Shown here in pieces: positions 24,619 through 59,635 of a DNA stretch of 64,000 nucleotides (the stretch's first letter is position 1; every line of letters begins with the position of its first letter). The position numbers and the translations under genes were made by a program. The DNA is taken from positions 1-64,000 of the forward strand of contig NZ_CATNVD010000015.1 in assembly GCF_951230155.1 (NCBI RefSeq). The letters run 5' to 3'. Source of the DNA: Parablautia sp. Marseille-Q6255 (lineage in GTDB: Bacteria > Bacillota > Clostridia > Lachnospirales > Lachnospiraceae). Below the pieces are notes generated by a model. The model saw nothing but the letters and a program-made list of their open reading frames with translations, did not search any database and had not been told where the DNA came from.

Positions 24619-24638
24619 GACATCACACCCCTTCTTAT

Positions 24639-24678: not shown

Positions 24679-24705
24679 ATTTTGCTGACAGCTGTGGTTT
24701 CTGTT

Positions 24706-26331
24706 TTAAACCAGTTTTTGTTCTTCTATTTTACACCTGTGCTTTTTCGTCTGTTTGTCGTATCCAATACCCACCAGCAAAATCCGCTCAATCTTTTTCT
24801 CGTTTTTGGCTTTCTTTCCGGTAAAACGAACCAGATAGTTTTTCTCTCTGATTTGGTCAATCGCCTCTTCCGGAGAGTGATTTACCTTCAATTCCAAAAT
24901 CATCCCGGTTTTTACGGAAGGCATCTCCGGATAAAAAATAAAATCTACAAATCCTTTGCCTGCTTTTTCTTCCCGTTCCACCCGATAATAATCTCTCGCA
25001 GCTAAATAAGTCAGATTCACCACTGCGCTTAATTCTGTTTCATGGTTATAGGAGAGAATTGGAGTTTCTATCTCGTGGGTTTCTTCCAGGATCTGTTCCA
25101 TGGTTTCGGTATCTCCCCTAAGGGTTGCCTCCAGCATCTTTTCCGACGCCTTTGCCAGGCGATACACATATCCCAAGGACTCTTCCCGCTTTAGCATATC
25201 GGAAAACTGATCCATTAATTCCTTATTCGGAATAAATACTTCCCCGTCTTCATAGCTCAAAAATCCATAAACCACCATAGCGGAAAAAATCTGTTCTTTT
25301 GTCTTTAACTCCTGCGAGGTTGCTGCATATTCCCAGATTTTTGCAGGTATCGACTGCCCGGATACCATTAGTGCCAGATCGTCTTTTACCGCATCTACAT
25401 TATTTTTAATGTAATAAAAGATCTCGTCATACGGTCCGGAGCTGGTCCAGTAATTTCCCAGATTATTATTGGATAAGGACATGACTACAGAACGGGGATT
25501 ATATAACCGTTCTCCGCCCTTGGTATGATATCCGTCATACCATTTTTTCAGTCCTTCTCTGGTTACTTGTGCAGATTCAATCCCCATTTTCTCGTAACGG
25601 GCAAATAAAGCATCCACCTCCTGATCTGTAAAGCCAAAATACTCAGAAAACCGCTCCTCCGATGCCATGGTAAATTCACTGAACATATTTAATTCCGATC
25701 CACTGCTGTATTTCGCAATTGGAAGGATACCTGTCATATAGGCAAGCCGAACATAAGGCCGGTCTTTTAAAAGGTTCCGAAGAAACATCAGATATTCTTT
25801 CTTATCCTGCTCTGTGATAAAGTCCTGATGAAAAATAAAGTCCCATTCATCCAGAACAAAAATAAACCTTGCCGTTTCATCCTGTGAATACAACTCCAAA
25901 AGAGCATCCGCTGCATTATCAATCCCTTCCAGGTCCAGTTTCCTGTATTCCCTTTTGAAATCACGCAGTAGCCTATTTTCAATTCGATCAATATAATCTC
26001 TATAAGAACTGCATCTGCTTCCAAGCTCATTAAATGAAATATGGATCACTGGGAATTGATTGAGAAATTTATCATAATCCACTGTTTGGGAAATCAGCAG
26101 AGGATCAAAAATATCCCTTGCATCACAGGCATCGGAAAAAAAGGCAGAAATCATATTTGCCGTTACTGTTTTTCCAAACCGCCTTGGTCTGGTAATACAG
26201 ATATGATTATTTCCAGTCTGAACCAGAGGAAATAATTCCTCCAGTATTTTAGATTTATCTACAAAAAAATTTTTTTCTGTCTCGCTTTTGTATAAGGTAT
26301 ATGCAGTTTTACTGTTCAAATAAACTCCCAT
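24706..26331 (-). CDS. AAA-ATPase-like/PD-(D/E)XK protein, first of the cluster
   Basis: A 541-residue relative of the next gene. YLNSKTAYTLYKSE and NFFVDKSKILEELFPL precede Walker A in TRPRRFGKTVTANMI. Walker B is RFIFVLDEWDFIFH, with Trp in place of Tyr after Glu. EYFGFTDQEVDALFARYE and KKWYDGYHTK are shared with the paralog. The nuclease-like domain has GKGFVDFIFYPE (Asp) and GMILELKVNH (Glu-x-Lys). A promoter lies about 105 bases upstream, so the three genes probably form one transcript separate from the replication genes. Confidence 0.87.
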   Translation of the reverse strand: MGVYLNSKTAYTLYKSETEKNFFVDKSKILEELFPLVQTGNNHICITRPRRFGKTVTANMISAFFSDACDARDIFDPLLISQTVDYDKFLNQFPVIHISFNELGSRCSSYRDYIDRIENRLLRDFKREYRKLDLEGIDNAADALLELYSQDETARFIFVLDEWDFIFHQDFITEQDKKEYLMFLRNLLKDRPYVRLAYMTGILPIAKYSSGSELNMFSEFTMASEERFSEYFGFTDQEVDALFARYEKMGIESAQVTREGLKKWYDGYHTKGGERLYNPRSVVMSLSNNNLGNYWTSSGPYDEIFYYIKNNVDAVKDDLALMVSGQSIPAKIWEYAATSQELKTKEQIFSAMVVYGFLSYEDGEVFIPNKELMDQFSDMLKREESLGYVYRLAKASEKMLEATLRGDTETMEQILEETHEIETPILSYNHETELSAVVNLTYLAARDYYRVEREEKAGKGFVDFIFYPEMPSVKTGMILELKVNHSPEEAIDQIREKNYLVRFTGKKAKNEKKIERILLVGIGYDKQTKKHRCKIEEQKLV

Positions 26332-31396: not shown

Positions 31397-31633
31397 CTAT
31401 TCTTTTTTTACTTCTCTTTTCTCCAATGGTGTAATCTCTCTTGCCAGTTTCCGTCCGTTTCCATCCTCACCAACGGTAAACTCCACAGACTGCCCGGAAG
31501 AAAGTTTTTTAAATCCCTCCTGCTGGATCTGTGAGAAGTGTACAAAATAATCCACTCCTTCTTTATCTGTAATAAAACCATAGCCTCTGCCTGCACTGAA
31601 CCATTTTACAGTTCCTTTTACTCTGTTTTCCAT
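31397..31633 (-). CDS. cold-shock domain protein (CspA family)
   Basis: A 78-residue single cold-shock domain. The opening is VKGTVKWFSAGRGYGFI, with RNP1 RGYGFI, and RNP2 is YFVHF. The ending KLAREITPLEKREVKKE has a basic tail. The ATG at 31633 (AGGAG nine bases ahead) gives the family's usual start. Such proteins bind single-stranded nucleic acid and melt RNA structure. In this element it could act as an RNA chaperone for the many structured leaders (inference). Confidence 0.93.
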   Translation of the reverse strand: MENRVKGTVKWFSAGRGYGFITDKEGVDYFVHFSQIQQEGFKKLSSGQSVEFTVGEDGNGRKLAREITPLEKREVKKE

Positions 31634-31684
31634 AATGTCTATCTCCTTTACTTGGTAATTCTGCATGTATAGTTTTTTGCTATT

Positions 31685-31799: not shown

Positions 31800-34700
31800 T
31801 TAAGCGGTTGATTTCTTTCTTGTAAACAGGAGAATGCCACCTGCCAAAGCAAGCAGTGCAACTCCAATGAATCCATAACTCCATCCACCAAATCCTCCCG
31901 TCTGCGGAAGGATAAACTGCGGCTCGTTGGTAATCTCATACAGACAGTCATAAAAGAACCATTTTCCCGTGTAACCGGAATCCTCCTTGGCACTTTTGAA
32001 ATCCACATTTCCATATTTTTCTGCCTCTGCTTTTGTCATGGTAATCGGAAGCTTAACTGTGATTTTATCTTTTAATAAGGTCTGTCCCGGTACTGTCTTT
32101 ACCTCTGTGATTTCATACGTTCCATGATCCAGATTTTCAAAAGCGATTTCACCTTTTTTATCTGTCTGAAAGCGTTTCGTTTCCCCTTCCTTTAACAGCC
32201 GTTTATATGGCTTGGCCAATCCTGTATCCGTTTCTGCCGCTTTTACAAATTTTATTTCAAACTCCACGCCTGCTAATGGGTTTGTTCCCGTTTTATCATA
32301 TTTCTTTATACGAATTTTTCCTGGCACCAGTTCATTGTAAAGCCGCTTCACGGTCAACTTCTGTTTCTTGGTAGCAAATCCATGAATGGTATCATCAATC
32401 TGGTAGTTTGCCGGTGCTTTTACTTCCTGTATTGTCACATAACCCCCTATCGGAAGGATAATTTTTCCAGAAGATGGATCCGTATAAAAAGTATCACTCT
32501 TCATTGCTGCATCTTCCTGATAGACATGCTTAGGATCCATATATACTTTTCCTTTTGTATCTGATTTCAAATACCAGGTTTTCTTTAACTGTCCAGCATT
32601 TGCCGTAGAATCATCGTAATAGCAAACTTTAAAGACTACACCTGGAATCGGTTTTCCATGCATGGACAATTTTTCTACCAATGCATCCAGTTCCATAAAG
32701 TCATAAGGTTCACTAAATCCTTCTGTAAAGGAAGCCGTTTTTTGTTTTAATGCATCCGCAGGCATTGTAACCGTTACGGAAACCGTCTTTTCTGCCACCT
32801 GATGTCCAGCAGGAGCCGTCAATTCCTTAACATAATAAGTAGACGTTCCTACTCCTGCCTTCAGATAATAGACTGGCGTCTTTCCTTCTTCATTTGTCCG
32901 AAGCACATTGTCTGCAACTTTTTCTGTTAGCTTCTGATCCGAATAAAGCTGCACCCGTTTGGTACATGCCGAATCAGCAAATACGCCAAAAGTTGCATTT
33001 GCCAGACTATAGGGCTTCAAATTTAAAATTTCTGGACTCGCTTTCGATGCCTTTTCCACTTTCAATTTCCAGTAACGCAAAGAATCTACCGAAGTAGGAA
33101 TATCTCCCTTTACAGCCAATTTCCGTATGGTATAAGCTCCTGCTGCATCTTTTTGTGCAACCAACTCCACCATATACGTATTCAGATCTAACTCATAAAC
33201 ATCGGATGGCGGTTTAACTTCCTTGATACGCACAAAACCAAACGGTAACATAGGAACCGTCTTTTTGGGATTTTCAATAATCGCATCACTCTGATATGTC
33301 TTTCCCTGATCCGTAAACGACTCTACATAATGTGCATGATCATAAGATAAAACGCCATTTTTATCCGTTTTAAAATACCAAGTTCTTTTCGGTGAAAATG
33401 CGTCACTGCCTTCTGTACTATACTCTACCTTATAGATAGCTCCCTCTACCGGCAATCCAGAATCATCTACTTTTGTCAAAAGCTTTCCATTAAAATACAT
33501 CGGATAATTATAAATCCAGTTATTGGATGCCATGGAATCATAATCTGCATTATTTACCTTTTCATGAAGCTTTACTACACCGCTGTCTTTTTCTGTAATT
33601 ACCACTGGCCCATAAATATCTGTATTTTGTGTACATCCTGCAATACGTCTTGTCTCTATGACGTAATATGTCCCTGGATCTAAAATATCGGAATCCCCAT
33701 AAACGGTATCATCTTCTTTTTCATTTAAAATGATAGTACCTTCTGGTGTAACCGATGTATCCAGTACTTTTGTCGTCGGATTATAGGCAGATTCTGGATA
33801 AATGGCAAAAGTTGTCTTCAAATAGCCATATTTATCCGGATTTATTTCCATAAATTCTGGATAAGCAAATCTCTTATAAACTCTTAATTTTGCCCCATTT
33901 GTCAAAGAAGAATAAGTTTTGGACCCATAAAATCCCTGATAATTTCCATGCTGGTCGCTTCCCGGATGCAAACTACAGATAATTTTCAAACGGTAATCTT
34001 CTCCTCGCTTCTGAATATAACACCGAAACGTCACATCATATGAGCTATGTGGCCACAATCCCAGATAGTCATGCCCGCTAGCACAGTTGACATTAAAATT
34101 TGTCAGTTTCTCAGGATCAATATCATACCCCTGTTCCGTAATCCAAGCATCAATTTCGCTACGTTTTTGAGAAATCTGTGCCGTACCAGTATTGCATCCA
34201 CCTACACTTCCTGAAACATACGAATGGTTTGTGGTATTTGCATCCCCTGTTGTAACCTGTCCTTTAATTTTTTTACTATCTACCGTTGACCATGTGGCCG
34301 CAGTTTCCAAGTATGCATCACCATCTTTTTCTGTTTTTCCAAGTGCGATGTCTTCCAAATGCTCCATATCTGTATCCGACAATTGACTAATGGAAAGCTC
34401 TTCCAGCTGAAAGTCATCCCCGCTTGCCCAGCCGCCTCCAGTAAAAAACTTAGCAGATTGATAATCCGGTCGGTACATAGAAAATATGACCGCTTCATTT
34501 AAATCCTTTGGCAGTTCCACACGTAGATTTCTGGAACCGTCTCCATTATCGGAAATCATACAACAATCTGTTGTCATTTCTTTGGAGGAAGAAGTAAGCT
34601 TCACATCATACTCCGGATCAATACACGTTATAGTAAAGAGATCCTCCGTTCCTACTTTTACCAGATCCCCATATCCACTGAAATGGCTGTCTGTTTCTCT

Positions 34701-37523
34701 TCGAAACAAAATCGTGGATTCTGTAGATGTCAAATAAATGCCCGGTTCCAAATTTTCTTTTGCAACAACGGTTACAGAATTGGCAACATACCAGGTATAT
34801 TCCGGATAAAGAAAATATGACATCTCATAAGTAACCGTATAGGTTCCTTCTTTGGCTACGTCAAACCCACCATCATCTGCCAGATTATTTACTTTAAATG
34901 TTTCCGGGTTGTAATCAATCAAAAGTCCGTAAATATCAAACTCCGAGTCATCTTTTAAAACCGTAAACTCCCTTCCTGAAACCGTTTCACCCCGATATTT
35001 TGGAACAATACCACCATACCCTTCATTTCTGTCCTGTGTTACAGAAGATGGCATCAGATTCTCCAACAAAGCAGAGCCTTGTGTTGCAAGGCTTCGATCA
35101 TCCGTATATTCAAAAGTTACAAACAAATTCCAGCTATAATTCTCCACATCTTTACGCGTACAGATATAGGGAACCTGAAATCTTTCTCCTACCGCTATGG
35201 TATGCTCCGGTATCTCATCTGCGCAGGAAACAGATACCCTCTCATCTTCCTGATATGGATTATATCCTGCAAAATCAAATTCGGTATCTCTGACCCAAAT
35301 TTTGTGTGTCTCAGAAACAGTAGAACCTTTTCCAGGATATGGACCATCTTCTTCCATACCAGCCATATCAGAACTTTCTTCCTCCATGAGATCACTCTCT
35401 TCGGTTTTAGACATTTCCATTTCTTCCGTCTTAGGCGGAGCTGCTACATAATCAGTTGTATACACCAGACCTTTATTTAACGGAATGCCTTCCAATCCTG
35501 TCATAGATACCTGTCCGCTAAACTTTGCCGCAGCTTCAGATGTCGTACCTGCAACCACATTGTAGTCTACGGTTGCCCCATAATTAGAAGAAGAAACACG
35601 AACGCCTTTTTCATTGCAGGAGCCGACGATCACTGCTTCTGTAACCGATCCAGGCATATAGTCTATAGCATCTGCTCCGTTATTTCCTGCTGCGCCTACA
35701 ACAATAATACCCATGGATATTGCTTTTTGGATTTCCGCCTCCAAAACTGCATTCATCAGGTTCCTTTTTGAGGATAAAGACAGATTGATAATTGAAGCAC
35801 CCTGTTCTATTGCATATTCCATTCCTGCAACAATTGCGGAAACCGTACCTCTCCCATCATTTCCCATCACTCTTATAGATAAAATCTCCGCATTGGGGTT
35901 TGCTCCAGTCATCGCAGAAACCATCTCGTTCCCATGAGCATGTCCTTCCAAGACATCATCAATTAAGGATACTCTGCCAATCACATTTTCAGATGCAGAA
36001 GCGCCGGTATCCAAAAGTGCAATTACCCTGTTTTTCCCATCGGGCAGAAAAACAGCGCCTTCCATCTCGGAAAGCGCTGTTACCGGATTGTATGCATTTT
36101 CTTTTGGAATTTCTTCTATCTCCATGTCCGATATATCAGAAGCAATTTCCAAAAAGGCATCTGGTTCTACTGCATCCACGATTTCTTTATAGTACACATA
36201 TGCAGCCATGCACCGTTCTACGGTCTCATACTCGATTAGATAAATATTTCCATAACTTCCAATCACAGCATCTGACGACAGGATGTTTTGAGGATCTGCG
36301 GTCATAACGAGAAGTCTTCTGGAGGAAAAATCTTCAATGCAAAGATTTTGGGGTACAATTTCTGATAGAATATCCTTTTCTTCCTGCGTGGGTTCTTTTT
36401 GTTGCGTTTCTTCCGGAAGTTTTTCCTTTTCTTCCTGCTCTTGGAGTTCATCCGATTTTTCCGGCGCAGCGGAAGGCTCCGTATTCTCCTTGGATTCTTC
36501 TGCCACTTTTTCCTTCCATCCAATGATGCACTTTTCAAATACATTCGTTGCGTTTTCCGGCGAAACAATTGCACTTGCCACTACCGTTTCTGCCTGATCG
36601 TTTAACAACGGAAACGTACCGGTAAGCATATCCCCTTTTGGAATATCCATTTCAATGTAGCGAGCGGTAAGCTTCTCTGCTTCTCTGGTTTCACAAAGAT
36701 AAGCAGAAGCGTTCCAAATATTGCCCTCTTGGTTTGTAATCATCACTGGAAAACTTCCATCCTCATTACAGGTTGGAAACGTTATTTCGTTGCAAGCTTC
36801 TGTAAGCAACTCCTCTGGTATCATTTTTCCATTCGTTTCACTTCCTTGGTAATCCCAGAAATAAATCCGAAGTTTCATATCCTCCTGCATAGGATTAAAC
36901 GCATCTACCTTTAGATTTTGAACGGTACCTGCCGCCTCTGGGTCTGGCACCTCATCACTTGATTCCAAAAGTTCCCGTGTAAGCGTTATCTCAACAAGTT
37001 CTGTCATCTGTATCTCTTCATGGTTTGACTCCGTATCGAAATCCTGCTTATCAGGCGCATCCATATCTGGTTCTTTCTGAAGAGTTTCTCCGATTTCTTC
37101 TTTTAATGATTCTGTGTCTTCTTCCTTTTCATCGGAGATCTCTCCCTCTATATCCGGTATTTCCTCTGTTTCCTTCTCCGGTGTCTGAGATTCTGCCTGT
37201 CCTACTATTTCCTGTGTTTGCTCTGTTTTCTCTTCCGTCTGTCCAGTCTCTGTAAAAGAATCGTTCCCTGGTTCTATTTCCGAAAATTCTGTTTTTGGCA
37301 GCTCTGGCTCGAAATCCTCTGTTTCTAACGGTTCCATACATTCTGTTTTCTGGGTTTCTGTTTCCGAAATCAGACCTTCTTCTATTTTAACAGTTTCTTT
37401 TTCCGCTTCACTCTCCACTTGTGGCGCAGTCGCATAAACTGCTAAGGTCGATGGCGATATTACTGACAACACCAGCGACATCAGAAGGGTAACGGAAATA
37501 AATTTTTCCAATTTCCATTTCAT
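31800..37523 (-). CDS. LPXTG adhesin with a subtilase (S8) domain and SpaA repeats
   Basis: A 1907-residue cell-wall protein. Signal peptide (FISVTLLMSLVLSVIS, cut near AVYA), then a long Glu/Thr-rich stretch (40-200). A subtilisin-like domain has Asp505 (ALLDTGAS), His530 (HGNEMVSAM) and Ser662 (AGTTSEAAAKFSG), with the oxyanion Asn in AAGNNG, so the triad is complete. A large unassigned region follows (about 720-1300), then about five SpaA/Cna_B domains. The end is the sorting signal LPQTGGFGG, a membrane helix and RKK. It abuts the class C sortase gene. Probably the tip or accessory pilin, with possible host- or self-processing activity. Confidence 0.88.
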   Translation of the reverse strand: MKWKLEKFISVTLLMSLVLSVISPSTLAVYATAPQVESEAEKETVKIEEGLISETETQKTECMEPLETEDFEPELPKTEFSEIEPGNDSFTETGQTEEKTEQTQEIVGQAESQTPEKETEEIPDIEGEISDEKEEDTESLKEEIGETLQKEPDMDAPDKQDFDTESNHEEIQMTELVEITLTRELLESSDEVPDPEAAGTVQNLKVDAFNPMQEDMKLRIYFWDYQGSETNGKMIPEELLTEACNEITFPTCNEDGSFPVMITNQEGNIWNASAYLCETREAEKLTARYIEMDIPKGDMLTGTFPLLNDQAETVVASAIVSPENATNVFEKCIIGWKEKVAEESKENTEPSAAPEKSDELQEQEEKEKLPEETQQKEPTQEEKDILSEIVPQNLCIEDFSSRRLLVMTADPQNILSSDAVIGSYGNIYLIEYETVERCMAAYVYYKEIVDAVEPDAFLEIASDISDMEIEEIPKENAYNPVTALSEMEGAVFLPDGKNRVIALLDTGASASENVIGRVSLIDDVLEGHAHGNEMVSAMTGANPNAEILSIRVMGNDGRGTVSAIVAGMEYAIEQGASIINLSLSSKRNLMNAVLEAEIQKAISMGIIVVGAAGNNGADAIDYMPGSVTEAVIVGSCNEKGVRVSSSNYGATVDYNVVAGTTSEAAAKFSGQVSMTGLEGIPLNKGLVYTTDYVAAPPKTEEMEMSKTEESDLMEEESSDMAGMEEDGPYPGKGSTVSETHKIWVRDTEFDFAGYNPYQEDERVSVSCADEIPEHTIAVGERFQVPYICTRKDVENYSWNLFVTFEYTDDRSLATQGSALLENLMPSSVTQDRNEGYGGIVPKYRGETVSGREFTVLKDDSEFDIYGLLIDYNPETFKVNNLADDGGFDVAKEGTYTVTYEMSYFLYPEYTWYVANSVTVVAKENLEPGIYLTSTESTILFRRETDSHFSGYGDLVKVGTEDLFTITCIDPEYDVKLTSSSKEMTTDCCMISDNGDGSRNLRVELPKDLNEAVIFSMYRPDYQSAKFFTGGGWASGDDFQLEELSISQLSDTDMEHLEDIALGKTEKDGDAYLETAATWSTVDSKKIKGQVTTGDANTTNHSYVSGSVGGCNTGTAQISQKRSEIDAWITEQGYDIDPEKLTNFNVNCASGHDYLGLWPHSSYDVTFRCYIQKRGEDYRLKIICSLHPGSDQHGNYQGFYGSKTYSSLTNGAKLRVYKRFAYPEFMEINPDKYGYLKTTFAIYPESAYNPTTKVLDTSVTPEGTIILNEKEDDTVYGDSDILDPGTYYVIETRRIAGCTQNTDIYGPVVITEKDSGVVKLHEKVNNADYDSMASNNWIYNYPMYFNGKLLTKVDDSGLPVEGAIYKVEYSTEGSDAFSPKRTWYFKTDKNGVLSYDHAHYVESFTDQGKTYQSDAIIENPKKTVPMLPFGFVRIKEVKPPSDVYELDLNTYMVELVAQKDAAGAYTIRKLAVKGDIPTSVDSLRYWKLKVEKASKASPEILNLKPYSLANATFGVFADSACTKRVQLYSDQKLTEKVADNVLRTNEEGKTPVYYLKAGVGTSTYYVKELTAPAGHQVAEKTVSVTVTMPADALKQKTASFTEGFSEPYDFMELDALVEKLSMHGKPIPGVVFKVCYYDDSTANAGQLKKTWYLKSDTKGKVYMDPKHVYQEDAAMKSDTFYTDPSSGKIILPIGGYVTIQEVKAPANYQIDDTIHGFATKKQKLTVKRLYNELVPGKIRIKKYDKTGTNPLAGVEFEIKFVKAAETDTGLAKPYKRLLKEGETKRFQTDKKGEIAFENLDHGTYEITEVKTVPGQTLLKDKITVKLPITMTKAEAEKYGNVDFKSAKEDSGYTGKWFFYDCLYEITNEPQFILPQTGGFGGWSYGFIGVALLALAGGILLFTRKKSTA

Positions 37524-38395
37524 TTAAGTAGTCCTCCTTTTCGACTTTTAAAAACAAAACGAATTCCCATAAATATAACAATTCCTAGCGTAAAAATTCC
37601 AATACTGATCAAGACATCTCTTTTATACTCCTGCATCCATTTTGATTCTACTGGTTGTGACGAAAATGCCTCGCTTGCCATATCCTCTGTGCGTTCTGTT
37701 CGTTTTCCTCTTACCAGCAATCGATGGGAATTTACACCATAAGGGGTACAAGTCACTAAGGTACACAAATCTTTTCCCGGTATAATAGCAAGTTCTTCTA
37801 AGTCAGATGGAAACACAGTTTTAATCTGATCCACTTCATAAGCCAGTGTCTCTCCACAAACGCTTAAAAAAAAGAGGTCTCCCACTTTCAATTCTGCAAG
37901 ATCTGTAAACAGCTTTGCATGGCTTAACCCAGTGTGCCCTGTAATTACACAGTGTGTGCTGGCACCACCTATGGGAAACGAGCTTTCTTTTAGATGCCCT
38001 GCGCCCGCCTCCAGCGTCTGCTCCGAGGTTCCGTGATAGATTGGCAGTGAAATATTAATTGACGGAATTTTGACAAACCCCATAACCCCATCTGCAGTCA
38101 TACAAAGGATAGAATCATAATGTTCCTCCAGACTTTCATCTCCTTCTTCCGAGAAAGGGTCGGACAATCTCACATAACCGCTTGCAAGCCTTTCATTGTA
38201 TTGCTTAGCCCGTTGCATCTGTAACTGCTTTTTGGAATCATCCACCGTTTCCGCTGTCTTCTCCACCAACCGGACCAACGAATCTGTCCGATGCTCAAAT
38301 ACATAGTTCGCAACATAAGGATATAAAATCAAACCAGCAGCGCTTAGGAAAAGCAGGAGCACCAGCAAAAATTTTGTGATGCTCCGTTTTTTCAT
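37520..38395 (-). CDS. class C (pilus-assembly) sortase
   Basis: A 291-residue membrane protein with an N-terminal helix (FLLVLLLFLSAAGLILYP) and a C-terminal helix (IFTLGIVIFMGIRF), the topology of class C sortases. The catalytic residues are His in ITGHTGL, Cys in LVTCTPYG and Arg in HRLLVRG. The lid motif DPF is present in RLSDPFSEEG. It lies between the pilin and the adhesin and overlaps both by a few bases, so it likely polymerises this pilus. I prefer the ATG at 38395 (AAAGAGG ahead) to a TTG at 38404. Confidence 0.93.
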   Translation of the reverse strand: MKKRSITKFLLVLLLFLSAAGLILYPYVANYVFEHRTDSLVRLVEKTAETVDDSKKQLQMQRAKQYNERLASGYVRLSDPFSEEGDESLEEHYDSILCMTADGVMGFVKIPSINISLPIYHGTSEQTLEAGAGHLKESSFPIGGASTHCVITGHTGLSHAKLFTDLAELKVGDLFFLSVCGETLAYEVDQIKTVFPSDLEELAIIPGKDLCTLVTCTPYGVNSHRLLVRGKRTERTEDMASEAFSSQPVESKWMQEYKRDVLISIGIFTLGIVIFMGIRFVFKSRKGGLLK

Positions 38396-38400
38396 CAAAC

Positions 38401-40263
38401 TCAAGCCTCTTTCTTAGATTTTTTTACCAGTATCACAACTCCTGCCAGCGCAACGGAACAGCCCGCAAGAGTAAAGAGAATCGTTCCATATCCGCCTGTC
38501 TGCGGCAGTTCAAATGTAGAAGTATTTACAACCGTCATATCTACACGTGCATTGGTTGAATTCACATCTTTCACCCCATCCACACTCATAGCTGTATTTT
38601 TACCATCTACCGTAGCACTTGCTCTCTCGCCGGCAGTTTCAATCATATGTTTATGTGCATTACCGGCAATATCTTTTGCATCGTAAAGTGTGGTACGTGA
38701 GGGAACAAACTCGTCTACCGTACATTTAATATCAATTGTAATCGGCTCCTTTAACAAGGAGTATCCAGCAGACGTATGGATTTCCGTTAATAGATAGGTA
38801 TTTGCTTCCAGACCATTGATGAGCAGCTTTCCAGTTCCATCCGGACTGAATATGGTGCCGTCCTCTTCTTTTGCTCCCTTACTTGCATCTGTCACATAAT
38901 ACAATCCGTCCTCTGCTTTTTTTGCAACGACATAATGGCCGTCTGTTTCATTTTTCAGGACAAACTGCACCTTCGTAGGATCTCCCTTTGTTTTGGTGTC
39001 TGTAAACTCTTTCTTGATATGCAGACCAAAGGTATATACGCGGCAGCGGTCTTCCAGCGTGTCCATATAATCCATACTGGTTCGTTTCCAGGTAAGGGTA
39101 ACGTCATTGGTATTACCGGCATCTCCCAGAACCGAAGTGGCATCTGAATTTATGGTTGCGGAATAAGAAACGACCAGCCAGCACTGGGAAAGTGTCGGAT
39201 CAATCTCTTTTAGCCCTTCCTGGGTCGGAGAAACCGTCATTTGGTTATAATCGCTGTTACTGCCAGTATAGGTTTCCTCAAACGCAGAACTTCCATGTTC
39301 CCATGTTTTAATCGCATTTGCCGTATGATTCATTCTGGCATCTGCCTCGTTATTATAAAAATAAATCGCAGCATCTTTATTATAGGTAAGCCCTTTATCC
39401 ATCTTGTCTACAAACGTGTACTGCGTTAAATATGTGGATTCTGATGTGATCTTAGGCAGGTGGCTGACAAAAATATAATCCATCACATCCCCTTGCGATC
39501 CGGTGGCAATATCCCCATACTCCGGCTTATCATACAACGTTGCATCATCATGCTGCCGTACCATCTTATCCAAATCTGGAATATTGGTCTGATTCTTGGG
39601 ATACACATTGACGTCATAGAACCAATTGTTCCCATCTTGATCTGTCATGGGAAGGGAAACAAAAAACGGATCTACCGTTGTATGCACATTTGCCGGAACC
39701 TTCGTTTCAAGAAACAGATAAAGACCTACGGAAAGCCCGGTGGCAGATGTAGTCCCATCTGCTTTTGTAAGGGGCATGCGCGTGGAACCGCTAGCCGATA
39801 CAATATAATTTTCCAAAATATTCTTTCCAGCCGTATTATCCGTAAGAGTATCTGCCATCGCTTGGTTCAGTTCATCTGACGTATGCTTATGATCCCCTCT
39901 TGTATCAGTGAGGTTCATAGCGGCTTCCAATGCCGGAGGAATATCATAGAGCACCTTTATGTTTCCATTTACACTTTCCGTATGGATGTCTCCTACTTTC
40001 GCATATGTAAATTCAACGCCTTCTATTACATAATCTTTCAATGTTGCTTCCGCTTGCGCATCTTGTTTTCCATTTGCCGTATACTGATAAATGTCAATCC
40101 CATCTTCTGTTGCTGCAGTCATATCATATTTATGAATTGTAACGGATGCACTTCTTGCGGTATCAATCAAATCATTTGGTGCTGCAGAAACGGATAATAC
40201 ACCAGAAGCCCCACATGCCACAGCTAATAATACTGCACTTAAATTTATCACAAATTTTCTCAT
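38401..40263 (-). CDS. major pilin (SpaA/FimA type) with LPQTG sorting signal
   Basis: A 620-residue pilin. Signal peptide (INLSAVLLAVACG, cut near VSAAP), then a pilin motif with the acceptor Lys in WFYDVNVYPKNQ, isopeptide-forming SpaA-type domains, and a C-terminal LPQTGGYGT, membrane helix and KKSKK tail. Presence of both the pilin motif and the sorting signal marks it as the backbone subunit joined by the class C sortase. ATG at 40263 has AAAGGAG ten bases ahead. An in-frame ATG at 40296, right after the upstream stop, is the alternative. Confidence 0.92.
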   Translation of the reverse strand: MRKFVINLSAVLLAVACGASGVLSVSAAPNDLIDTARSASVTIHKYDMTAATEDGIDIYQYTANGKQDAQAEATLKDYVIEGVEFTYAKVGDIHTESVNGNIKVLYDIPPALEAAMNLTDTRGDHKHTSDELNQAMADTLTDNTAGKNILENYIVSASGSTRMPLTKADGTTSATGLSVGLYLFLETKVPANVHTTVDPFFVSLPMTDQDGNNWFYDVNVYPKNQTNIPDLDKMVRQHDDATLYDKPEYGDIATGSQGDVMDYIFVSHLPKITSESTYLTQYTFVDKMDKGLTYNKDAAIYFYNNEADARMNHTANAIKTWEHGSSAFEETYTGSNSDYNQMTVSPTQEGLKEIDPTLSQCWLVVSYSATINSDATSVLGDAGNTNDVTLTWKRTSMDYMDTLEDRCRVYTFGLHIKKEFTDTKTKGDPTKVQFVLKNETDGHYVVAKKAEDGLYYVTDASKGAKEEDGTIFSPDGTGKLLINGLEANTYLLTEIHTSAGYSLLKEPITIDIKCTVDEFVPSRTTLYDAKDIAGNAHKHMIETAGERASATVDGKNTAMSVDGVKDVNSTNARVDMTVVNTSTFELPQTGGYGTILFTLAGCSVALAGVVILVKKSKKEA

Positions 40264-40299
40264 AAGCTTTAAGCTCCTTTCCAAATATTTTTTCATTAG

Positions 40300-41319
40300 T
40301 TACCTTTTCTTTTTCAGACGAAGGATAATAATTAATACGGTAACAAAAATGCAGATTACCGGAAGAAACACTCGGAGCAAGTCCTCTTTTTCGGCAAGTG
40401 TTTCCGTAAATCGGTTTTCCAAAACAATACCTTTTCCAGCAAGCTCTTTTTCGGCCAGTTTTTTTACGGTTACCCCTTGCTCCTTGAATTTTTTTGTGAC
40501 AGTCTTTTCTGTGTTTCCCTTTACTTCCCTCTCACAATAGATCACTAACCGGTACTCTGTTCCGGGCGACATATAAGGATAACAGGAAAAAAGCGTGACC
40601 ATATCTTTTCCTTCCTGAATATTCAAAATATCACATTCGCTCGCATGGATAATTTCCGTACCAGTTACCTGATAAGTCAGTTTTTCCCAAAGATTTCGGA
40701 TATGGATTTTGGAACCAATTTTTAACTGGTCGATATCACGGAAATAAGCACTTCCTTTCCAGCCTCTATGAGTCGCTATCACACAGTTTGTATTCCTCCC
40801 TCCTACTGGCATGCTTGTTTCTGTTAAAACAACAGCTCCACTACTCATATTTGATTCTGTCGCCCCGATAGCAAGCGGAAGCGATACGGAAATATCCGGA
40901 AGTTCAATATGCCCTACCACGCTGGAGCCATGATTCAACTCTTTTATATTTACTGGTGTTTGTCTAAAATTCCATGCATCTGTAATATCCTGGCCTTCTA
41001 AATATAAATGAGTATTGTATTCCTGTAATGCTTTCAAAAAATCCAAAGAACCGGAAGTAGATATTTCTTTATCTCCCACCTGTGCTTCCGATCCTACTTC
41101 AGCATTTTCTTTTCTTTGGAGTTTCCTGTCATCCCCTTCCTCTGTAAAAAGCGGTTCTGCAATCTGCTGGATTTCTCTTTGATTTCTCCATTCCCTGTAA
41201 TCTGGGTAAAGGAAAATAGCTATGCCCGTCACTAATATTAAGATTCCGATTACTGTTTTTGTGATTTTATTCCTCATACCTTTCTGTCTCTGAACCGCAT
41301 ACCGACGTTTTATTTTCAC
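40300..41319 (-). CDS. second class C-like sortase, without a lid motif
   Basis: A 339-residue sortase. N-terminal helix VIGILILVTGIAIFLYP and C-terminal helix VFLPVICIFVTVLIIIL. Catalytic His in VIATHRGW, Cys in TLFSCYPYM and Arg in YRLVIYCER. No DPW/DPF lid motif is visible before the catalytic domain, unlike its neighbour, so it may attach the pilus base or a specific subunit rather than polymerise. The start is a GTG at 41319 directly behind GGGGAG and overlapping the upstream stop; an ATG at 41277 is possible. Confidence 0.9.
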   Translation of the reverse strand: MKIKRRYAVQRQKGMRNKITKTVIGILILVTGIAIFLYPDYREWRNQREIQQIAEPLFTEEGDDRKLQRKENAEVGSEAQVGDKEISTSGSLDFLKALQEYNTHLYLEGQDITDAWNFRQTPVNIKELNHGSSVVGHIELPDISVSLPLAIGATESNMSSGAVVLTETSMPVGGRNTNCVIATHRGWKGSAYFRDIDQLKIGSKIHIRNLWEKLTYQVTGTEIIHASECDILNIQEGKDMVTLFSCYPYMSPGTEYRLVIYCEREVKGNTEKTVTKKFKEQGVTVKKLAEKELAGKGIVLENRFTETLAEKEDLLRVFLPVICIFVTVLIIILRLKKKR

Positions 41320-41840
41320 CTCCCCATACTATCTTTTATTTCCTGGTTATCTCTAATTTTCTCCAATCCCAAGAACGAACCTGTATCAAACATTGCATCT
41401 ACTTGTCGAATTCCTAGCAGGGTCTTGTTTTTTTCCCTGAAATAAAACCGATACCTCTTACCCTGTTCTACTGAAAGCTTTTTACTTAATAAAAGTTCTG
41501 TATACGATCCGTCCTTTTGGCAAACTTTCAGATTTTGAAACTGCCCCGGCATCCCTTTTTTTATTTCTTCCACAATCCCTGTTACCATTTCATATCGGCC
41601 TTTTACCGCATCCCGAAAGACCACCAAAGCCTGAATCCCAACTGCTACACTTAAAAAAACGGACCATACAAAAAATCCGGCGTTTTGCCATCGAATTCCA
41701 AAAAATATACCCGAAATCAGGAAAAAAAGAGACAGGATACCAAGTTTTTGTATCCTGTCTAAAAAAATAGTAGGTATGTTCTGCATACTTTCAAAATGTC
41801 TTCTTGCAACCGCTTTCTTATCCGACCTCTGGAATTTCAC
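41316..41840 (-). CDS. membrane protein of the pilus operon, unknown function
   Basis: About 174 residues with two membrane segments (LGILSLFFLISGIFFGI and FVWSVFLSVAVGIQAL) and a cytoplasmic C-terminal domain containing KRYRFYFREKNKTLLGIRQV. The start is unclear: GTG at 41840 behind GGAGG, or ATG at 41786. It is overlapped by the preceding gene and shares an ATGA-like junction with the sortase, so it belongs to the pilus operon. No family recognised. Confidence 0.65.
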   Translation of the reverse strand: MKFQRSDKKAVARRHFESMQNIPTIFLDRIQKLGILSLFFLISGIFFGIRWQNAGFFVWSVFLSVAVGIQALVVFRDAVKGRYEMVTGIVEEIKKGMPGQFQNLKVCQKDGSYTELLLSKKLSVEQGKRYRFYFREKNKTLLGIRQVDAMFDTGSFLGLEKIRDNQEIKDSMGR

Positions 41841-42444
41841 ATTTAATAGGTACCTCCTCAATATTTTTAAATAAAATCTGTTTTCTGATATACAGGATAC
41901 GAATGCTTTTTAAGAATTCCTGCTTTTTTCCTTTGCCTTCTAAGCGCTCCAGATGCTTTCGGACACTTCCTTCTGTTTCCAACATTTTTAAAAATTTTTC
42001 TTCCTGTTGTGTCAATATTTCTTTTTTAAATGCCCGCATAGAAAAACGCAATCCTTTCCCCATAGACATACTATTTAGAAAAACAGGAATCCGTTGTATA
42101 AAATGATAAGAAACACAGGTCATAATTCCAGAACATATCAATCTGTCAATTGCGGTCTTGGCTTGCTCCCCTTCCACAGCGGCGATTAAACCTCTTCGCT
42201 CTAACCGACGCAGGCAATACAAAACTTCTACTTCCTCCAGCTTTTTTGCATTTTCTCCAAAAGCAATCCGTAAAAGGCTTTCCACACGATTTCGAATTTC
42301 TTGCTCTTCGCAGAAGGCCCATAAGAGAGCACTCCATATTTCTGTTTCCATACCTGTTAAAATTTTTTCTTCTTCCATGATTCGAACACAAAATCGTCCA
42401 TCATAGGTGTTTTTTTTCACACCGATTGCCGTGTACCATTTCAT
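41818..42444 (-). CDS. unknown soluble protein of the pilus operon
   Basis: A 208-residue protein with a strong AGGAGG ribosome site. Helical, with CLRRLERRGLIAAVEGEQAK resembling a winged-helix hairpin, and a basic C-terminus (SIRILYIRKQILFKN). It may be a regulator, but no family is recognised. Lies between two membrane-protein genes in the pilus transcript. Confidence 0.65.
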   Translation of the reverse strand: MKWYTAIGVKKNTYDGRFCVRIMEEEKILTGMETEIWSALLWAFCEEQEIRNRVESLLRIAFGENAKKLEEVEVLYCLRRLERRGLIAAVEGEQAKTAIDRLICSGIMTCVSYHFIQRIPVFLNSMSMGKGLRFSMRAFKKEILTQQEEKFLKMLETEGSVRKHLERLEGKGKKQEFLKSIRILYIRKQILFKNIEEVPIKCEIPEVG

Positions 42445-42456
42445 AATCCTTTCCTC

Positions 42457-43110
42457 CTAAAATAGTTCCATAACTTCCATGATTTTAGGAAGTACATATC
42501 CAAGAGCCAAAGCTACGCCAAGACAGAAACTCACATTTGGTTTTCGCATGCTCCAGACAGTTTGATGCTTTGTTCCTATAATCCGTACCCGTCCAGGCAC
42601 ATTCCAGCAGAAAGTCCGGTAAAACTGTATGAATTTTTCTCTATCAAACCCAAAAGAACGGACACAGAAAATTCGTCTCTTTTGTTCTTCTTCATCCAAC
42701 AATATAAAGCTTTCCAGTTCCTCCTGTCGTTCTATCAGTACCACATAAAATTCCGGTATCCCGCGTCTAACCCCTTCTACGATTTTATCAATTTCATCAT
42801 AGAAAATACGGCAGGATTCATAATGTCCGTTTTTCTCCGGCTGGCAGACTGCAAGGCTGTCTTCATCCAACTCCAGATAACAGTATTGTGCTTCCATAAT
42901 TTTCTGGCTCATACGGATAATCTGCCGAATGAATAAACAAAATACTACTGCCAGTGCACTGCATATATAAATCCTATCCCAGGACTGTTTCTGATAAAGA
43001 AGATACAGGCAAATTCCTTCCGCTACGCTTATAAGCGCCACAAGAATGTCGTACCGCTCCCGAAGATCCATCAGCCTGTATACATCATCTTCCGTCGCTT
43101 GTAATCGCAA
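42457..43110 (-). CDS. membrane protein of unknown function
   Basis: A 217-residue protein starting at TTG 43110 with AGGGGTGG ahead. Two adjacent membrane segments (ILVALISVAEGICLYLLY and IYICSALAVVFCLFI) are followed by a soluble domain of about 110 residues (IFYDEIDKIVEGVRRGIPEF) and a C-terminal hydrophobic end. The layout recalls PH-like membrane-associated domains, unproven. Twelve bases ahead of the next gene. Confidence 0.65.
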   Translation of the reverse strand: MRLQATEDDVYRLMDLRERYDILVALISVAEGICLYLLYQKQSWDRIYICSALAVVFCLFIRQIIRMSQKIMEAQYCYLELDEDSLAVCQPEKNGHYESCRIFYDEIDKIVEGVRRGIPEFYVVLIERQEELESFILLDEEEQKRRIFCVRSFGFDREKFIQFYRTFCWNVPGRVRIIGTKHQTVWSMRKPNVSFCLGVALALGYVLPKIMEVMELF

Positions 43111-43125
43111 TGCTATCCACCCCTT

Positions 43126-43590
43126 CTATGCTGAATTCTGTTTCCTGGTTTCAAAATTGTGTCCCCCTTTCCTTAATCTTTGGTGCAGTTTCACAAATTC
43201 CGTGCATTCCCGAATGGTTTCTCCGCATAGATATTCGGAAAACATTCCGATATGCATATCTCTTTCCCTGAGATTCAACCGGTTCTGCAGCCAGATATAG
43301 GTGCTGTGCCTGGTCATATAGCCTTCTTTCCACAAAGCATCCAGTGCCCTATGAGCCTGTATCCGTTTATTCCGTAAATCACTGTTTGCTAGGGTGCCTT
43401 TGGGACGCATACTCTTTTCGTGCACCCCTACATAAGCATCACATTCAGGATAGCCGCTGCAGACATACAAATAGGAATTTGGATTCAGAGTATCCTTTCC
43501 ATACACGTAAGAAGCCGACCGAAGAACGGCTGTCCTTCGGCAATACGGACAGATCACAGGCTTTTGTCTTTCTTTATGTTTTCTTGCCAT
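43126..43590 (-). CDS. zinc-finger protein (DUF3268-like)
   Basis: A 154-residue protein. Two pairs of cysteines, VICPYCRRTAV (near residue 13) and YVCSGYPECDAYVGVH, form a zinc finger as in zinc-finger-containing DUF3268 proteins of conjugative elements. The C-terminal part (ALDALWKEGYMTRHSTYIWL) is helical. The ATG at 43590, with GGAGG six bases ahead, is the most likely start. Between the S1-domain gene and the membrane protein gene. Probably nucleic-acid binding. Confidence 0.78.
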   Translation of the reverse strand: MARKHKERQKPVICPYCRRTAVLRSASYVYGKDTLNPNSYLYVCSGYPECDAYVGVHEKSMRPKGTLANSDLRNKRIQAHRALDALWKEGYMTRHSTYIWLQNRLNLRERDMHIGMFSEYLCGETIRECTEFVKLHQRLRKGGHNFETRKQNSA

Positions 43591-43665
43591 ACACATCCTC
43601 CCTTCCTTTAATACCTGCATTTTATAAAATTCGCTTTTCCTGTGACAACAGTATTTTGAAATTTT

Positions 43666-44631
43666 TTACATTCCGCGCTTGATCAACCTTGTAATGATTC
43701 CCTCTGCTACTTCATAGTTGTCATTAATTCTGGTAACTACAAAGCCTATCTTGTCTTTTTTCGCAGGCAGTGCCGGCATATTACAGGAATGAGCTACCGC
43801 ATTTACACCAATATCCAGCCGGATGAAATATGTGCCCTTATAAACATCGGTAATGGTTCCCACATATTTTCCCTGTTTGTGACACTTTTTCAAATTATCT
43901 TTATTGACATTTGCCGTAGCACTTTTGGCATCCACCGATACTGCCAAATCTTCCGGAGAATCCCCATGAATTTCATGTACCGTTACCAGCACCAAATCCC
44001 CTATTTGAAATTTTTCTGAAGCATCAATCATCCATTCCCACGCCATATCTCTTGCCCGAACAGATACTTCTACTCCAAACACCTCCAATCGTACAGCTTT
44101 CGGCGCCACCGCAATCACACGTGCCTGAGCCAGACGCCCTGGATAAATCATCTGCTGCGCCCCTTCTTCCTCTGGGAAATAAAACATCTGGCGTTTTTTT
44201 AACATAGCGTCTTTTCGTGATGCCACAACGCTTTTCGTTTTCGTATCCAGATCTTTGATAATAAAATCAATCTCACATCCTAGCATGTTATTTGCGATTC
44301 TGGTCTGCCGATTTAATGTATCAGCATTTTCTCTTCCATCCCCGCTTAGATTTATCATCATTTCATTCATGGGAATAATAATGCGAAATCCATTAAAATA
44401 TGTGACCGCAACAACCCAGCCACTTTCCAGCTTTTCTACACCTCCCAACTCTCCCGTTAAAATCTTTCTGGTACGGTGTGCATTTAACAACTGATGCCAC
44501 CTGGCATCCTCCTGCTCTTCCATGCTTTCCACCTTTGAATCTACCTCAATGGTAAGTATGCCATCAACCACCGCTCTTGGCACTTTCTTTTCCGGCGTTA
44601 TTACTCCGGATATTTTTTTAGTTTCCTCCAT
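43666..44631 (-). CDS. S1-domain RNA-binding protein of the element
   Basis: A 321-residue protein with at least two S1-like OB folds in its C-terminal half, one around RLAQARVIAVAPKAVRLEV and one around GKYVGTITDVYKGTYFIRLD. N-terminal GVITPEKKVPRAVVDGILTI and FNGFRIIIPMNEMM precede. ATG at 44631 has GGGAGG ahead. It is the first gene after a promoter that resembles the VirB2-operon promoter, and before the pilus operon. S1 domains bind RNA; a role in reading through the leader terminators of this element is possible (inference). Confidence 0.82.
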   Translation of the reverse strand: MEETKKISGVITPEKKVPRAVVDGILTIEVDSKVESMEEQEDARWHQLLNAHRTRKILTGELGGVEKLESGWVVAVTYFNGFRIIIPMNEMMINLSGDGRENADTLNRQTRIANNMLGCEIDFIIKDLDTKTKSVVASRKDAMLKKRQMFYFPEEEGAQQMIYPGRLAQARVIAVAPKAVRLEVFGVEVSVRARDMAWEWMIDASEKFQIGDLVLVTVHEIHGDSPEDLAVSVDAKSATANVNKDNLKKCHKQGKYVGTITDVYKGTYFIRLDIGVNAVAHSCNMPALPAKKDKIGFVVTRINDNYEVAEGIITRLIKRGM

Positions 44632-44663
44632 AAACTTCCTCCCATCTTTTTTTATAATAAAGA

Positions 44664-44713
44664 AAAAGCACAAAAAAACAACCTTATAAAAAAGCTGCTT
44701 TCTTTGTGCTTTT
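44664..44713 (-). terminator. terminator-like hairpin in the leader of the S1/pilus operon
   Basis: AAAAGCACAAA (44664-44674) and TTTGTGCTTTT (44703-44713) pair perfectly over 11 bases, and further A/T pairs extend the stem. It lies about 10-60 bases after the predicted transcription start and before the S1-domain gene. The U-rich descending arm fits termination or attenuation. Confidence 0.55.
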
Positions 44714-44727
44714 CTTTTACGAATACC

Positions 44728-44756
44728 ATTGTATAATGGAGCGAATTGAAAGTCAA
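44728..44756 (-). promoter_or_regulatory. promoter P1 of the S1-protein/pilus operon
   Basis: TTGACT (-35, 44751-44756) and TACAAT (-10, 44728-44733) with 17 bases between, on the minus strand. The -35 overlaps the stop region of the upstream gene. Upstream, GCAATTCTATC (44770-44780) and tandem TTTTGGTCGCA / TTTTGGTTGCA (44784-44805) recall the elements at the VirB2 promoter. ACCATTGTATAA is common to both -10 regions. Confidence 0.7.
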
Positions 44757-45126: not shown

Positions 45127-46956
45127 CTATTTTTCAAACAGATCTTCTACTTTTGTAACTACGCCATTCTTTCTGTCGTCTTTCTTCTCTCGCTTTGGCG
45201 GCATCATACCCAAATCCAAAATCACCTGCTCTGGTTGTGTTTCATACGCTTCCTTTGGTTCTTCTTTCACAGAAAATACATCTTTTTCCCATTTCCAAGC
45301 TTCATACCATTTTGGTATATGCTGCTCCACCTTTTCCATGGTAAGCTTTCCTGCATCCGCATGTTCCGTATAATCCATCTTACGAAAGCGCATCACCTTC
45401 TGCCCCCTGATAATCAAAAGCCCCATATCCAACGGATAGCGCAGGATTTCATCCGGCAAAAGAAGCTGGCGTTTACCAACAGACGATGATTCTGAATATT
45501 CCGGTACATAATCCGTTGCCCGAATTGTATAATAATTTTTCCGAACAGAAGAAACAGATACCGTCGTCTCCCCAGTACGATCACTAAAATAAGTAGCGGT
45601 TGTCATATCATTGCAGCCCAGAAAAATAGAAAAATCACAGCCTCCAAGAATTTCTTCCCACTGATTATCTGGGTATCTATTCTGAAGCTGCGGTATATTC
45701 TGATAAAGGATGCTCATACCGATTCCCCTTGACCTGGCGGTTGCCAGTTTCTTCTTAAAATCCGGAACCACTCCGATATTTGGAAATTCATCCAGAATAA
45801 AATTCATGGGAATTGGAAGCTTTCTTGCCTCTGTTCGGTCTGCAAACCGTACCAATTTAATACTTAGAAATGACGTGAACAGTGTTGCAAGCATATCATA
45901 TGTAGAATCCTGATCTGAAGTAATACAAAAATAAGCACACTTTTCTCTCGCCGGCAATGTTAAATCGATATCCGTATGGCTGGTAATCTGCTGTACCAAT
46001 TTATTTTGTAAAATTTGAAGTCGTGTACCAAGCCCCAACACAGCATTCCCTTTCACCTTCTCTGCTTTGGAAAACAACTGATACGGACCTTTTGCCGGAT
46101 GATTTGTTGGCAGACGTTCGAAAATAGAGTCCAGTGCTTCCACGCTTTTATTTAGCAAAAGCTTATAAGCTTCCGGAAAAGTTTTTTTATCTTCCGGGTA
46201 TTCCTCATAAACATACAGACATAATGCTTTTAGAAGATCCATTTCTACATTATCATAAAAATGATCGAACTTATCTGTGGTATTACGGATCACTACATCA
46301 CAGAATACATCAATCAATTCTCCGTTGTCAATTTCAGCCAGACAATTCCATGCATCCGAATGAGTTAATTGAATCAAATTTAACTGCTTAACTGTGTAGC
46401 CTTCCTCCTTTAAATATGCGCACAAATCTTCATACAGTTCTGATTTCGGATCTGTTATGTACATGCTTTCCTCACGCCGCACACACTGCAGCGCCATAAC
46501 TCGCGCAAATGCTCTGGATTTCATGGAGCCTTGTGAACCACAGACAGCTATATTTCTATTCAACCTGGAATCCGTAGGCAGACTTAAAATCTCTCCTGTT
46601 TCCGGCTCTTTTCCAAAAATGATTCCTGTCACACTTTTTGTATCCATATCCGTCTGTAGAATTTTGGCCAATTCTTCTTTTTTCATAAAGCCAGCAGTTC
46701 CATAAGTACCTTGACTGGAAATCTCAAAATTCCGTTCATCCTGCTCATCATTTCCAGTTCCACGCAATACAATGAGTACTGCCAAAACGACAAAAATCAC
46801 AATAACAACTAGCGCACCAGTTCTTCCTGCCACTGTCAAGATGCCTCGTCTGATACAGGTTAATGGATTTAAATCTACCTTTGCCTCTGTCAGGAAAAGG
46901 TTCATAAATCCCCCAACATAGGCAGCCAAAAACAGCATCCCTGTTACAAAAACCAT
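45127..46956 (-). CDS. type IV coupling protein (VirD4/TraG family)
   Basis: A 609-residue inner-membrane ATPase that delivers the relaxosome to the secretion channel. Two N-terminal membrane segments (TGMLFLAAYVGGFMNLF and GALVVIVIFVVLAVLIVL), Walker A in AVCGSQGSMKSRA, Walker B in MNFILDEFPNIG, and the family's RSRGIGMSILYQNIPQLQ block. The true start is uncertain: the frame is open upstream of this ATG and reads KEKAKKQKWKI, a plausible cytoplasmic leader, but without ATG, GTG or TTG. Gene overlaps the end of the replication initiator region. Confidence 0.93.
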   Translation of the reverse strand: MVFVTGMLFLAAYVGGFMNLFLTEAKVDLNPLTCIRRGILTVAGRTGALVVIVIFVVLAVLIVLRGTGNDEQDERNFEISSQGTYGTAGFMKKEELAKILQTDMDTKSVTGIIFGKEPETGEILSLPTDSRLNRNIAVCGSQGSMKSRAFARVMALQCVRREESMYITDPKSELYEDLCAYLKEEGYTVKQLNLIQLTHSDAWNCLAEIDNGELIDVFCDVVIRNTTDKFDHFYDNVEMDLLKALCLYVYEEYPEDKKTFPEAYKLLLNKSVEALDSIFERLPTNHPAKGPYQLFSKAEKVKGNAVLGLGTRLQILQNKLVQQITSHTDIDLTLPAREKCAYFCITSDQDSTYDMLATLFTSFLSIKLVRFADRTEARKLPIPMNFILDEFPNIGVVPDFKKKLATARSRGIGMSILYQNIPQLQNRYPDNQWEEILGGCDFSIFLGCNDMTTATYFSDRTGETTVSVSSVRKNYYTIRATDYVPEYSESSSVGKRQLLLPDEILRYPLDMGLLIIRGQKVMRFRKMDYTEHADAGKLTMEKVEQHIPKWYEAWKWEKDVFSVKEEPKEAYETQPEQVILDLGMMPPKREKKDDRKNGVVTKVEDLFEK

Positions 46957-54580: not shown

Positions 54581-54594
54581 GTCTTTCCTCCCTG

Positions 54595-59606: not shown

Positions 59607-59635
59607 ATTGTATAAATTTTAAAGTCATATGTCAA
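59607..59635 (-). promoter_or_regulatory. promoter P2 of the VirB2-VirB6-VirB4 transfer operon
   Basis: TTGACA (-35, 59630-59635) and TACAAT (-10, 59607-59612) with a 17-base spacer on the minus strand. Upstream, AGTCGCAAT occurs twice (59645-59653 and 59666-59674), exactly 21 bases apart, the second inside GCAATTCTATC (59670-59680). The same sequence lies upstream of P1. Confidence 0.8.

Follow-up and report, generated by a model that had tools for sequence, protein, structure and literature searches.

A putative sortase-assembled pilus cassette at the end of a VirD4-linked S1-domain operon in a clostridial conjugative element

The window, by which we mean the whole 64,000-nucleotide stretch that was analyzed, consists of bases 1-64000 of a 131-kb contig in a genome of 3.79 Mb. 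A conjugative element spans roughly 14-63.5 kb of it, mainly on the minus strand, and contains a ParM-like gene, a sigma-region-4 gene, a transfer operon, an S1-domain operon, and replication-type and accessory genes. The transfer operon has the order VirB2-like, VirB6-like, transglycosylase-C39, MPETG protein, PrgI-like, VirB4, DUF5697, DUF6100, DUF6017 and VirD4. The names VirB2, VirB6 and PrgI are tentative and based on size and position, and we take the transglycosylase-C39 gene to be VirB1-like. Pfam recognizes the VirB4 ATPase and the transglycosylase in this one operon, and VirB6 is assigned by size and position only. No relaxase, site-specific integrase or replication gene was recognized by Pfam among the window proteins scanned. 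The stretch 60166-60645 encodes a sigma-70 region 4 protein; behind it comes a short frame that to the eye looks like a region 2 of its own, a split arrangement as in Tn916. Three tandem AAA-ATPase-like/PD-(D/E)XK genes (21317-26331) lie between a large SpaA-domain protein and the replication-type genes. Also in the window, 10829-13909 encodes a glycoside hydrolase family 3 protein with its C-terminal domain ahead of its N-terminal domain.

The minus strand of 31800-41319 is a putative sortase-assembled pilus cassette with genes for a pair of class C sortases, a backbone pilin of the SpaH/EbpB type and an LPQTG protein of 1907 residues (Table 1). The first-pass annotation, made from the letters of the DNA, had reported these four genes inside a conjugative element beside the coupling protein gene, and protein models and motifs agree with it on each of these points. 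The pilin has the motif YPKN at residue 232, an E-box-like YLLTEIHTSAGY at 501 and LPQTG at 597. The genes expected of a sortase-assembled pilus operon, i.e., a class C sortase, a motif-bearing backbone pilin and an accessory LPXTG subunit, are all present, and the four genes are open with their key motifs intact. The GTG first codon of the divergent sortase overlaps the stop codon of u5, the gene in front of it. From the S1 gene through the LPQTG protein gene the open frames overlap or are at most 45 bp apart (starts as mechanically listed), and therefore a single transcript that joins the S1 operon to the pilus genes is plausible.

Table 1. Features of the element in the window, with the evidence for each
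Feature	Position	Strand	Evidence
Cold-shock-domain gene (Csp)	31397..31666	-	beside u5 in relatives; CSD found in homologue
1907-aa LPQTG wall-anchored protein	31800..37523	-	Pfam S8 1.6e-15, SpaA 3.9e-30
Class C sortase with DPF lid, TLVTC (probable pilin polymerase, SrtC2)	37520..38404	-	NF033745 265.6 bits; PDB class C sortases
Backbone pilin, SpaH/EbpB type	38401..40296	-	NF033902 169.8 bits vs 95; PF16555
Second, divergent class C sortase (TLFSC, without DPF lid)	40300..41319	-	NF033745 162.1 bits vs cut-off 160
u5, element backbone, last gene ahead of cassette	41316..41861	-	between u6 and Csp in relatives; hydrophobic stretches by eye
u6, element backbone	41818..42444	-	relatives; winged-helix match at E 0.06 only
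u7, element backbone	42457..43110	-	present in relatives
DUF3268 zinc-finger protein, backbone	43126..43620	-	PF11672 8.8e-40
S1 RNA-binding-domain protein, first operon gene	43666..44631	-	PF00575 4e-7; after VirD4 in relatives
S1 leader, nested hairpin and T-runs (terminator-like)	44640..44725	-	fold z = -5.7
S1-operon promoter TTGACT-N17-TACAAT	44728..44756	-	pattern match; relatives' promoters
VirD4 coupling protein, CD1115 family	45127..46956	-	NF045973 391.7 bits vs cut-off 250
VirB4-type ATPase	50609..53392	-	PF19044 7.7e-21
Transglycosylase and C39-like peptidase	54595..56667	-	PF01464, PF13529
Transfer-operon promoter TTGACA-N17-TACAAT	59607..59635	-	pattern match; relatives' promoters

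The 1907-residue protein had been annotated as an adhesin. It has an LPQTG anchor (residue 1872) and SpaA/prealbumin-like domains, whose region is similar to PDB 7k1u (4.2e-46), an entry with the name 'Collagen-binding Adhesin'. The annotation leaves out a subtilase-like (S8) domain at about residues 480-700, which follows an acidic N-terminal region and matches subtilisins at 2e-18. D505, H530 and N614 align with the subtilisin Asp, His and oxyanion Asn, and together with S662 they are invariant in all 119 sequences that could be aligned out of 120, the window protein included. S662, in GTTSEAAA, would presumably be the catalytic serine. The Pfam and subtilisin alignments, including those with a profile of the large protein, end short of this residue, and so protease activity is doubtful. 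The protein is possibly the pilus tip or an accessory subunit. It has at least 28 homologues at 59-88% identity over the queried region. Homologues of the subtilase part also occur in genomes without a window-type element, at 53% in a genome of the same genus and at 51 and 49% in two others, and near the latter two no pilin or sortase of the window kind was matched. Among 397 family members (at most three candidates scored per genome) the adhesin core was found at E <= 1e-60 in this genome only, which suggests that the cassette is rare among species representatives.

Two further genes of the element were overlooked in the first reading. The small transfer-operon protein at 53807-54613 ends in an MPETG-like sorting signal, and it has homologues in 25 of 33 VirD4 loci, several of the remaining loci being cut by contig ends. 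The other gene (16045-21051) encodes a 1668-residue protein with 13 SpaA domains and lacks an LPXTG motif; its homologues in relatives are 61% (L152) and 36% (L154) identical. The gene that follows its homologue in the An81 element encodes a class-B-like sortase. No trace of such a sortase was found beside 16045-21051 in the window; an IS3-type transposase gene (14451-15646) lies there instead, at what is presumably the element's edge. Another contig of the same genome holds a second VirD4 locus (L225, contig C14, 6293-14160), in which a 1742-residue LPXTG SpaA protein, 53% like the window's, is encoded upstream of VirD4.

The border between the element and its cassette is seen by comparison with relatives, that is, with 63 loci found through VirD4; gene order was read in 33 of these and in further loci, and all 63 were scanned for sortases and pilins. 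The fullest order is VirD4-orf118-S1-DUF3268-u7-u6-u5-Csp-o372-...-ERF-DnaG-like, with parts missing in some loci. Both u5 and Csp are kept in 12 loci, 10 of them distinct (L042/L062 and L065/L067 are near-duplicate pairs), and in all 12 the aligned ends of the two genes are 54-203 bp apart, versus about 9.7 kb in the window. Since u5 adjoins Csp in the relatives, the backbone comprises S1, DUF3268 and u5-u7, and the cassette is 31800-41319. Three 'unknown' genes had been counted as part of the pilus locus, behind the S1 gene; gene order in the relatives rules this out for u5-u7 and places S1, like DUF3268, in the element backbone as well. No sortase or pilin was found in any of the 12 loci, and therefore the VirD4 transfer family does not need the cassette. 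The check proposed in the first-pass annotation, whether the pilus genes always travel with VirB4/VirD4, thus has a negative answer.

The S1 open frame extends over 43666-44673, with the probable start at the ATG at 44631. The low-confidence model of u7 (mean pLDDT 68) has long helices and then a beta domain, with no PDB match at E <= 0.001 and weak PH-like matches only, and u6 has a match of 22% in the Vescimonas plasmid described below.

The S1 operon and the transfer operon have similar promoters. The S1 promoter, TTGACT-N17-TACAATGGT (44756), recurs with one mismatch only at 59635, ahead of the transfer operon, and within the window TTGACT-N17-TACAATGGTA of S1 and TTGACA-N17-TACAATGGTA of the transfer operon are mutual best matches. 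To this extent the promoter match claimed in the first reading stands. With three mismatches allowed, the pattern has four matches versus 2.5 expected, and so it is weak by itself. In relatives, the S1 and transfer promoters have 11-bp-phased GCGAC repeats in common: GCG, in TTGCGAC-like units, occupies 23 of 36 positions at -15, -26 or -37 from the -35 box in 12 distinct promoters from both operons (nine S1, three transfer). Shuffles that kept base composition only gave a mean of 0.32 and a maximum of 3 at that phase, and a mean of 1.6 and a maximum of 5 at the best of any phase. Five of the 18 S1 upstream regions were without a promoter in this count, two were too short, and four S1/transfer promoters were duplicates. 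In the window the repeats are imperfect. The S1 promoter has one exact unit of three and the transfer promoter has one exact unit and two that are off by one base; two ATTGCGAC repeats lie upstream of the latter (59646-59653 and 59667-59674).

Both operons open with a terminator-like hairpin ahead of the first gene. A hairpin is present in each of the 18 S1 leaders folded, 14 of which were aligned, and the transfer leader (59500-59606) has both a hairpin and a segment (GTAAAGTTTTGTGCATG...GGAGAGCC) of which the sequence is conserved in three elements. A known RNA family was dropped as a candidate, as Rfam gave no match in the window or the transfer leader at the thresholds used. The phased repeats common to both promoters and the leader hairpins suggest shared activation of the two operons plus control in their leaders. 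To assign an action at these leaders to the S1 and cold-shock proteins would be speculation.

Pilins related to the one in the window also occur in other settings. Five genomes of the same genus have pilins 46-67% identical to it and no VirD4 of the window kind at E <= 1e-100; in the 6-20 kb read around each of these pilins, sortases and LPXTG proteins were matched and no transfer genes were, the closest pilin (67%) being on a contig of only 5.9 kb. The first-pass annotation had held that pilus genes apart from transfer genes in relatives would speak against its proposal, and these five genomes supply part of such a case. More widely, the pilin model found 42 loci in 36 genomes among 391 class members, with few candidates scored per genome. 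Among the other 41 clostridial pilin loci, two have a VirD4 gene within 20 kb on the same contig versus 0.67 expected, a count that is lowered by contig ends and by the small number of candidates scored in each genome. There is therefore no general tie between pilins and transfer genes, and a general nearness of pilins to VirD4 was ruled out.

The cassette itself probably does stay with the element in a sub-clade. Among the matches listed, five of 28 adhesin clusters (>=59% identity) share the exact longest-contig size with a u7 cluster, which is the reason for this view, and 12 of the 28 do so with a pilin cluster; shifted controls gave a mean of 0.03 for each comparison, with maxima of 1 and 2. 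For u7 versus pilin clusters, two longest-contig sizes are shared among the matches listed, which is not above the control (mean 0.24, maximum 4). The comparison used the best 120 of 500 matches for the adhesin, 120 of 138 for u7 (118 distinct values) and 120 of 3371 for the pilin (71 distinct values).

Plasmid and phage-labelled sequence records show a similar arrangement. Out of 72,556 plasmid records, five match VirD4 and three match the pilin (E <= 1e-60), and one, Vescimonas fastidiosa pMM35_02, matches both. Among 50,697 phage-labelled records, ten match VirD4 (1e-40) and one the pilin (1e-20), the record with both being MT835683.1, an unverified faecal metagenome contig. All five plasmid VirD4 records and three of the ten phage-labelled ones were read gene by gene. 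The order in pMM35_02 is VirD4, S1, a small protein, a SpaA protein, a pilin and two class C sortases; further on there are DUF3268 and u6-/u5-like genes. The record MT835683.1 has VirD4 and the pilin cassette in the same order. The two records are 83% identical in the pilin, 87 and 89% in the sortases and 70% in the SpaA protein, but only 32% in VirD4, 41% in VirB4 and 24% in S1. These values imply that one cassette moved between divergent transfer systems and came to lie in the same place. It is thus well supported that another pilus cassette was recruited to the VirD4-S1 operon in divergent elements. The window cassette represents another pilin lineage (39-40% to the pilins of the two records) at the opposite end of the same operon. 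In a third record, MT836282.1, a sortase of ambiguous class and a SpaA protein follow VirD4-S1. Scans of viral contigs with the adhesin, the window pilin, S1 and the Vescimonas pilin confirmed no relative, and the VirD4 alignment gave four distant loci there.

A class C sortase together with a pilin is present in two of 88 VirD4 loci (L209 and L211) besides the window, the loci being partly non-independent; these two were opened for their pilin match, which biases the share among VirD4 loci, whereas the record counts are unbiased. Eleven of the 88 loci are without S1 and have an An81-like sortase gene 208-928 bp after VirD4; the An81 sortase is class-B-like at 138 bits versus a cut-off of 154. 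Seventeen distant VirD4 loci (L071-L099) have a sortase of about 187 residues 7.7-9.3 kb downstream, which is fragmented in six. Several of these loci have split frames for the sortase and VirD4, which may reflect pseudogenes or a different genetic code. This survey of 88 loci suggests that sortases are frequent companions of the VirD4 transfer family and that a full pilus is rarer. On a Streptococcus equinus plasmid (L210, NZ_CP046630.1, 2452-15411), a pilin 54% identical to the window's, a class C sortase and an adhesin with a GbpC/Spa domain are encoded about 5 kb from a gene with a TraM-recognition domain.

Sortase pili of the SpaA/EbpB kind are found in Corynebacterium, Enterococcus and Lactobacillus. 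The window pilus is like them in its class C sortases, its D1 pilin with a YPK motif and LPXTG, its E-box-like motif and its large LPXTG partner, and unlike them in that its genes are in a VirD4-linked conjugation operon and that the large partner has a subtilase-like domain. The novelty is this placement and the protease-like partner, not the pilus itself. Likewise, the element shares the VirD4 model NF045973, VirB4, DUF5697, DUF6100 and DUF6017 with the CD1115-family VirD4 elements of Clostridia, which we take to be Tn1549/CTn-like, and is set apart from them by its pilus cassette and by the S1-domain operon that follows VirD4. The titles and abstract openings searched, mostly outside subscription journals, named no sortase pilus in a type IV secretion operon of Clostridia.

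Surface proteins encoded alongside transfer genes are known from PrgB of pCF10 and the TIE adhesin of pLS20, but the window has in addition a pilin and its own polymerizing sortases; pLS20 is reported to lack a sortase gene and to use an adhesin that no sortase anchors (PMC8092201). Closer in kind are the sortase pilus operons of Lactococcus pSH74 and Enterococcus pBEE99, which are on plasmids. Overexpression of the pSH74 pilus cluster in Lactococcus is reported to have led to aggregation and more conjugation (PMC5152845). In pBEE99 the pilus operon is flanked by two insertion sequence (IS) elements, and the stretches seen of it and of two other enterococcal plasmids have no annotated transfer gene beside the pilus operon. 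An accessory pilus of a conjugative element is also known from the IncI plasmid TP114, whose type IV pilus is reported to be needed for transfer in broth and in the gut (PMC9045228); the likeness is one of role only, the machinery being unrelated and Gram-negative.

We propose that the pilus cassette was captured at the 3' end of the S1-DUF3268-u7-u6-u5 operon, which is conserved behind VirD4 within a family of conjugative elements of Clostridia. Transcription of the cassette would start at the S1 promoter, and as that promoter is similar to the one of the transfer operon, the pilus would be made as the element prepares for transfer. SrtC2 would polymerize the backbone pilin and attach the large protein with its subtilase-like and SpaA domains, most probably as the tip, a sortase would anchor the pilus, and the structure may then help the donor to reach and hold recipients. 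We give this reading as a whole, a captured cassette that is induced together with transfer and serves mating contact, a probability of roughly 0.5. A narrower form, in which the pilus is a dedicated mating organ, polymerized by sortase, wall-bound with a subtilase tip, induced along with the type IV secretion genes and repeatedly taken up at VirD4-S1 by divergent systems, is tentative and would more probably be wrong than right. Several results count against a mating role: the terminator-like hairpin between the promoter and S1, the absence of the cassette from the 12 related loci, the small number of pilin loci near VirD4, the imperfect repeats in the window and the u7-pilin cluster comparison, which does not exceed its control.

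The main rival explanation is that the cassette is accessory colonization cargo that binds mucus or gut surfaces and helps the host cell, from which the element gains indirectly. The same-genus pilins in genomes without the window-type VirD4, the IS-flanked operon of pBEE99 and the enterococcal plasmid stretches without annotated transfer genes, the dispensability of the cassette in relatives and the likeness of the SpaA region to a collagen-binding adhesin all favor it, and we regard it as a serious contender. It accounts less well for the promoter likeness to the transfer operon and for the placement in a VirD4-linked operon. The mating-contact role is somewhat likelier than colonization cargo, mainly in view of the uptake of pilus cassettes by divergent transfer elements at this same operon.

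The invariant Asp, His, Asn and candidate Ser of the large protein would be unexpected in a pure adhesin, and they raise the further prospect that the structure carries a protease on the cell surface and works between bacteria once contact is made, by trimming surface proteins of recipients or competitors or in surface exclusion, instead of in simple adhesion. As subtilisin alignments stop ahead of the catalytic serine, such activity is doubtful and we consider this explanation improbable. Least probable is that the pilus genes landed beside VirD4 by chance or are a decaying, non-functional remnant. The IS3-type transposase at the presumed element edge, and the failure to recognize a relaxase or site-specific integrase among the proteins scanned, would fit this idea, but the four genes are open with overlapping frames and key motifs, the large protein has the homologues given above, and recruitment has recurred elsewhere.

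In conclusion, if the mating-contact reading is true, the uptake of a pilus cassette by divergent clostridial elements at their VirD4-linked operon would bear on how genes spread among gut bacteria, and pili of this kind may let some Gram-positive bacteria grip their mating partners.
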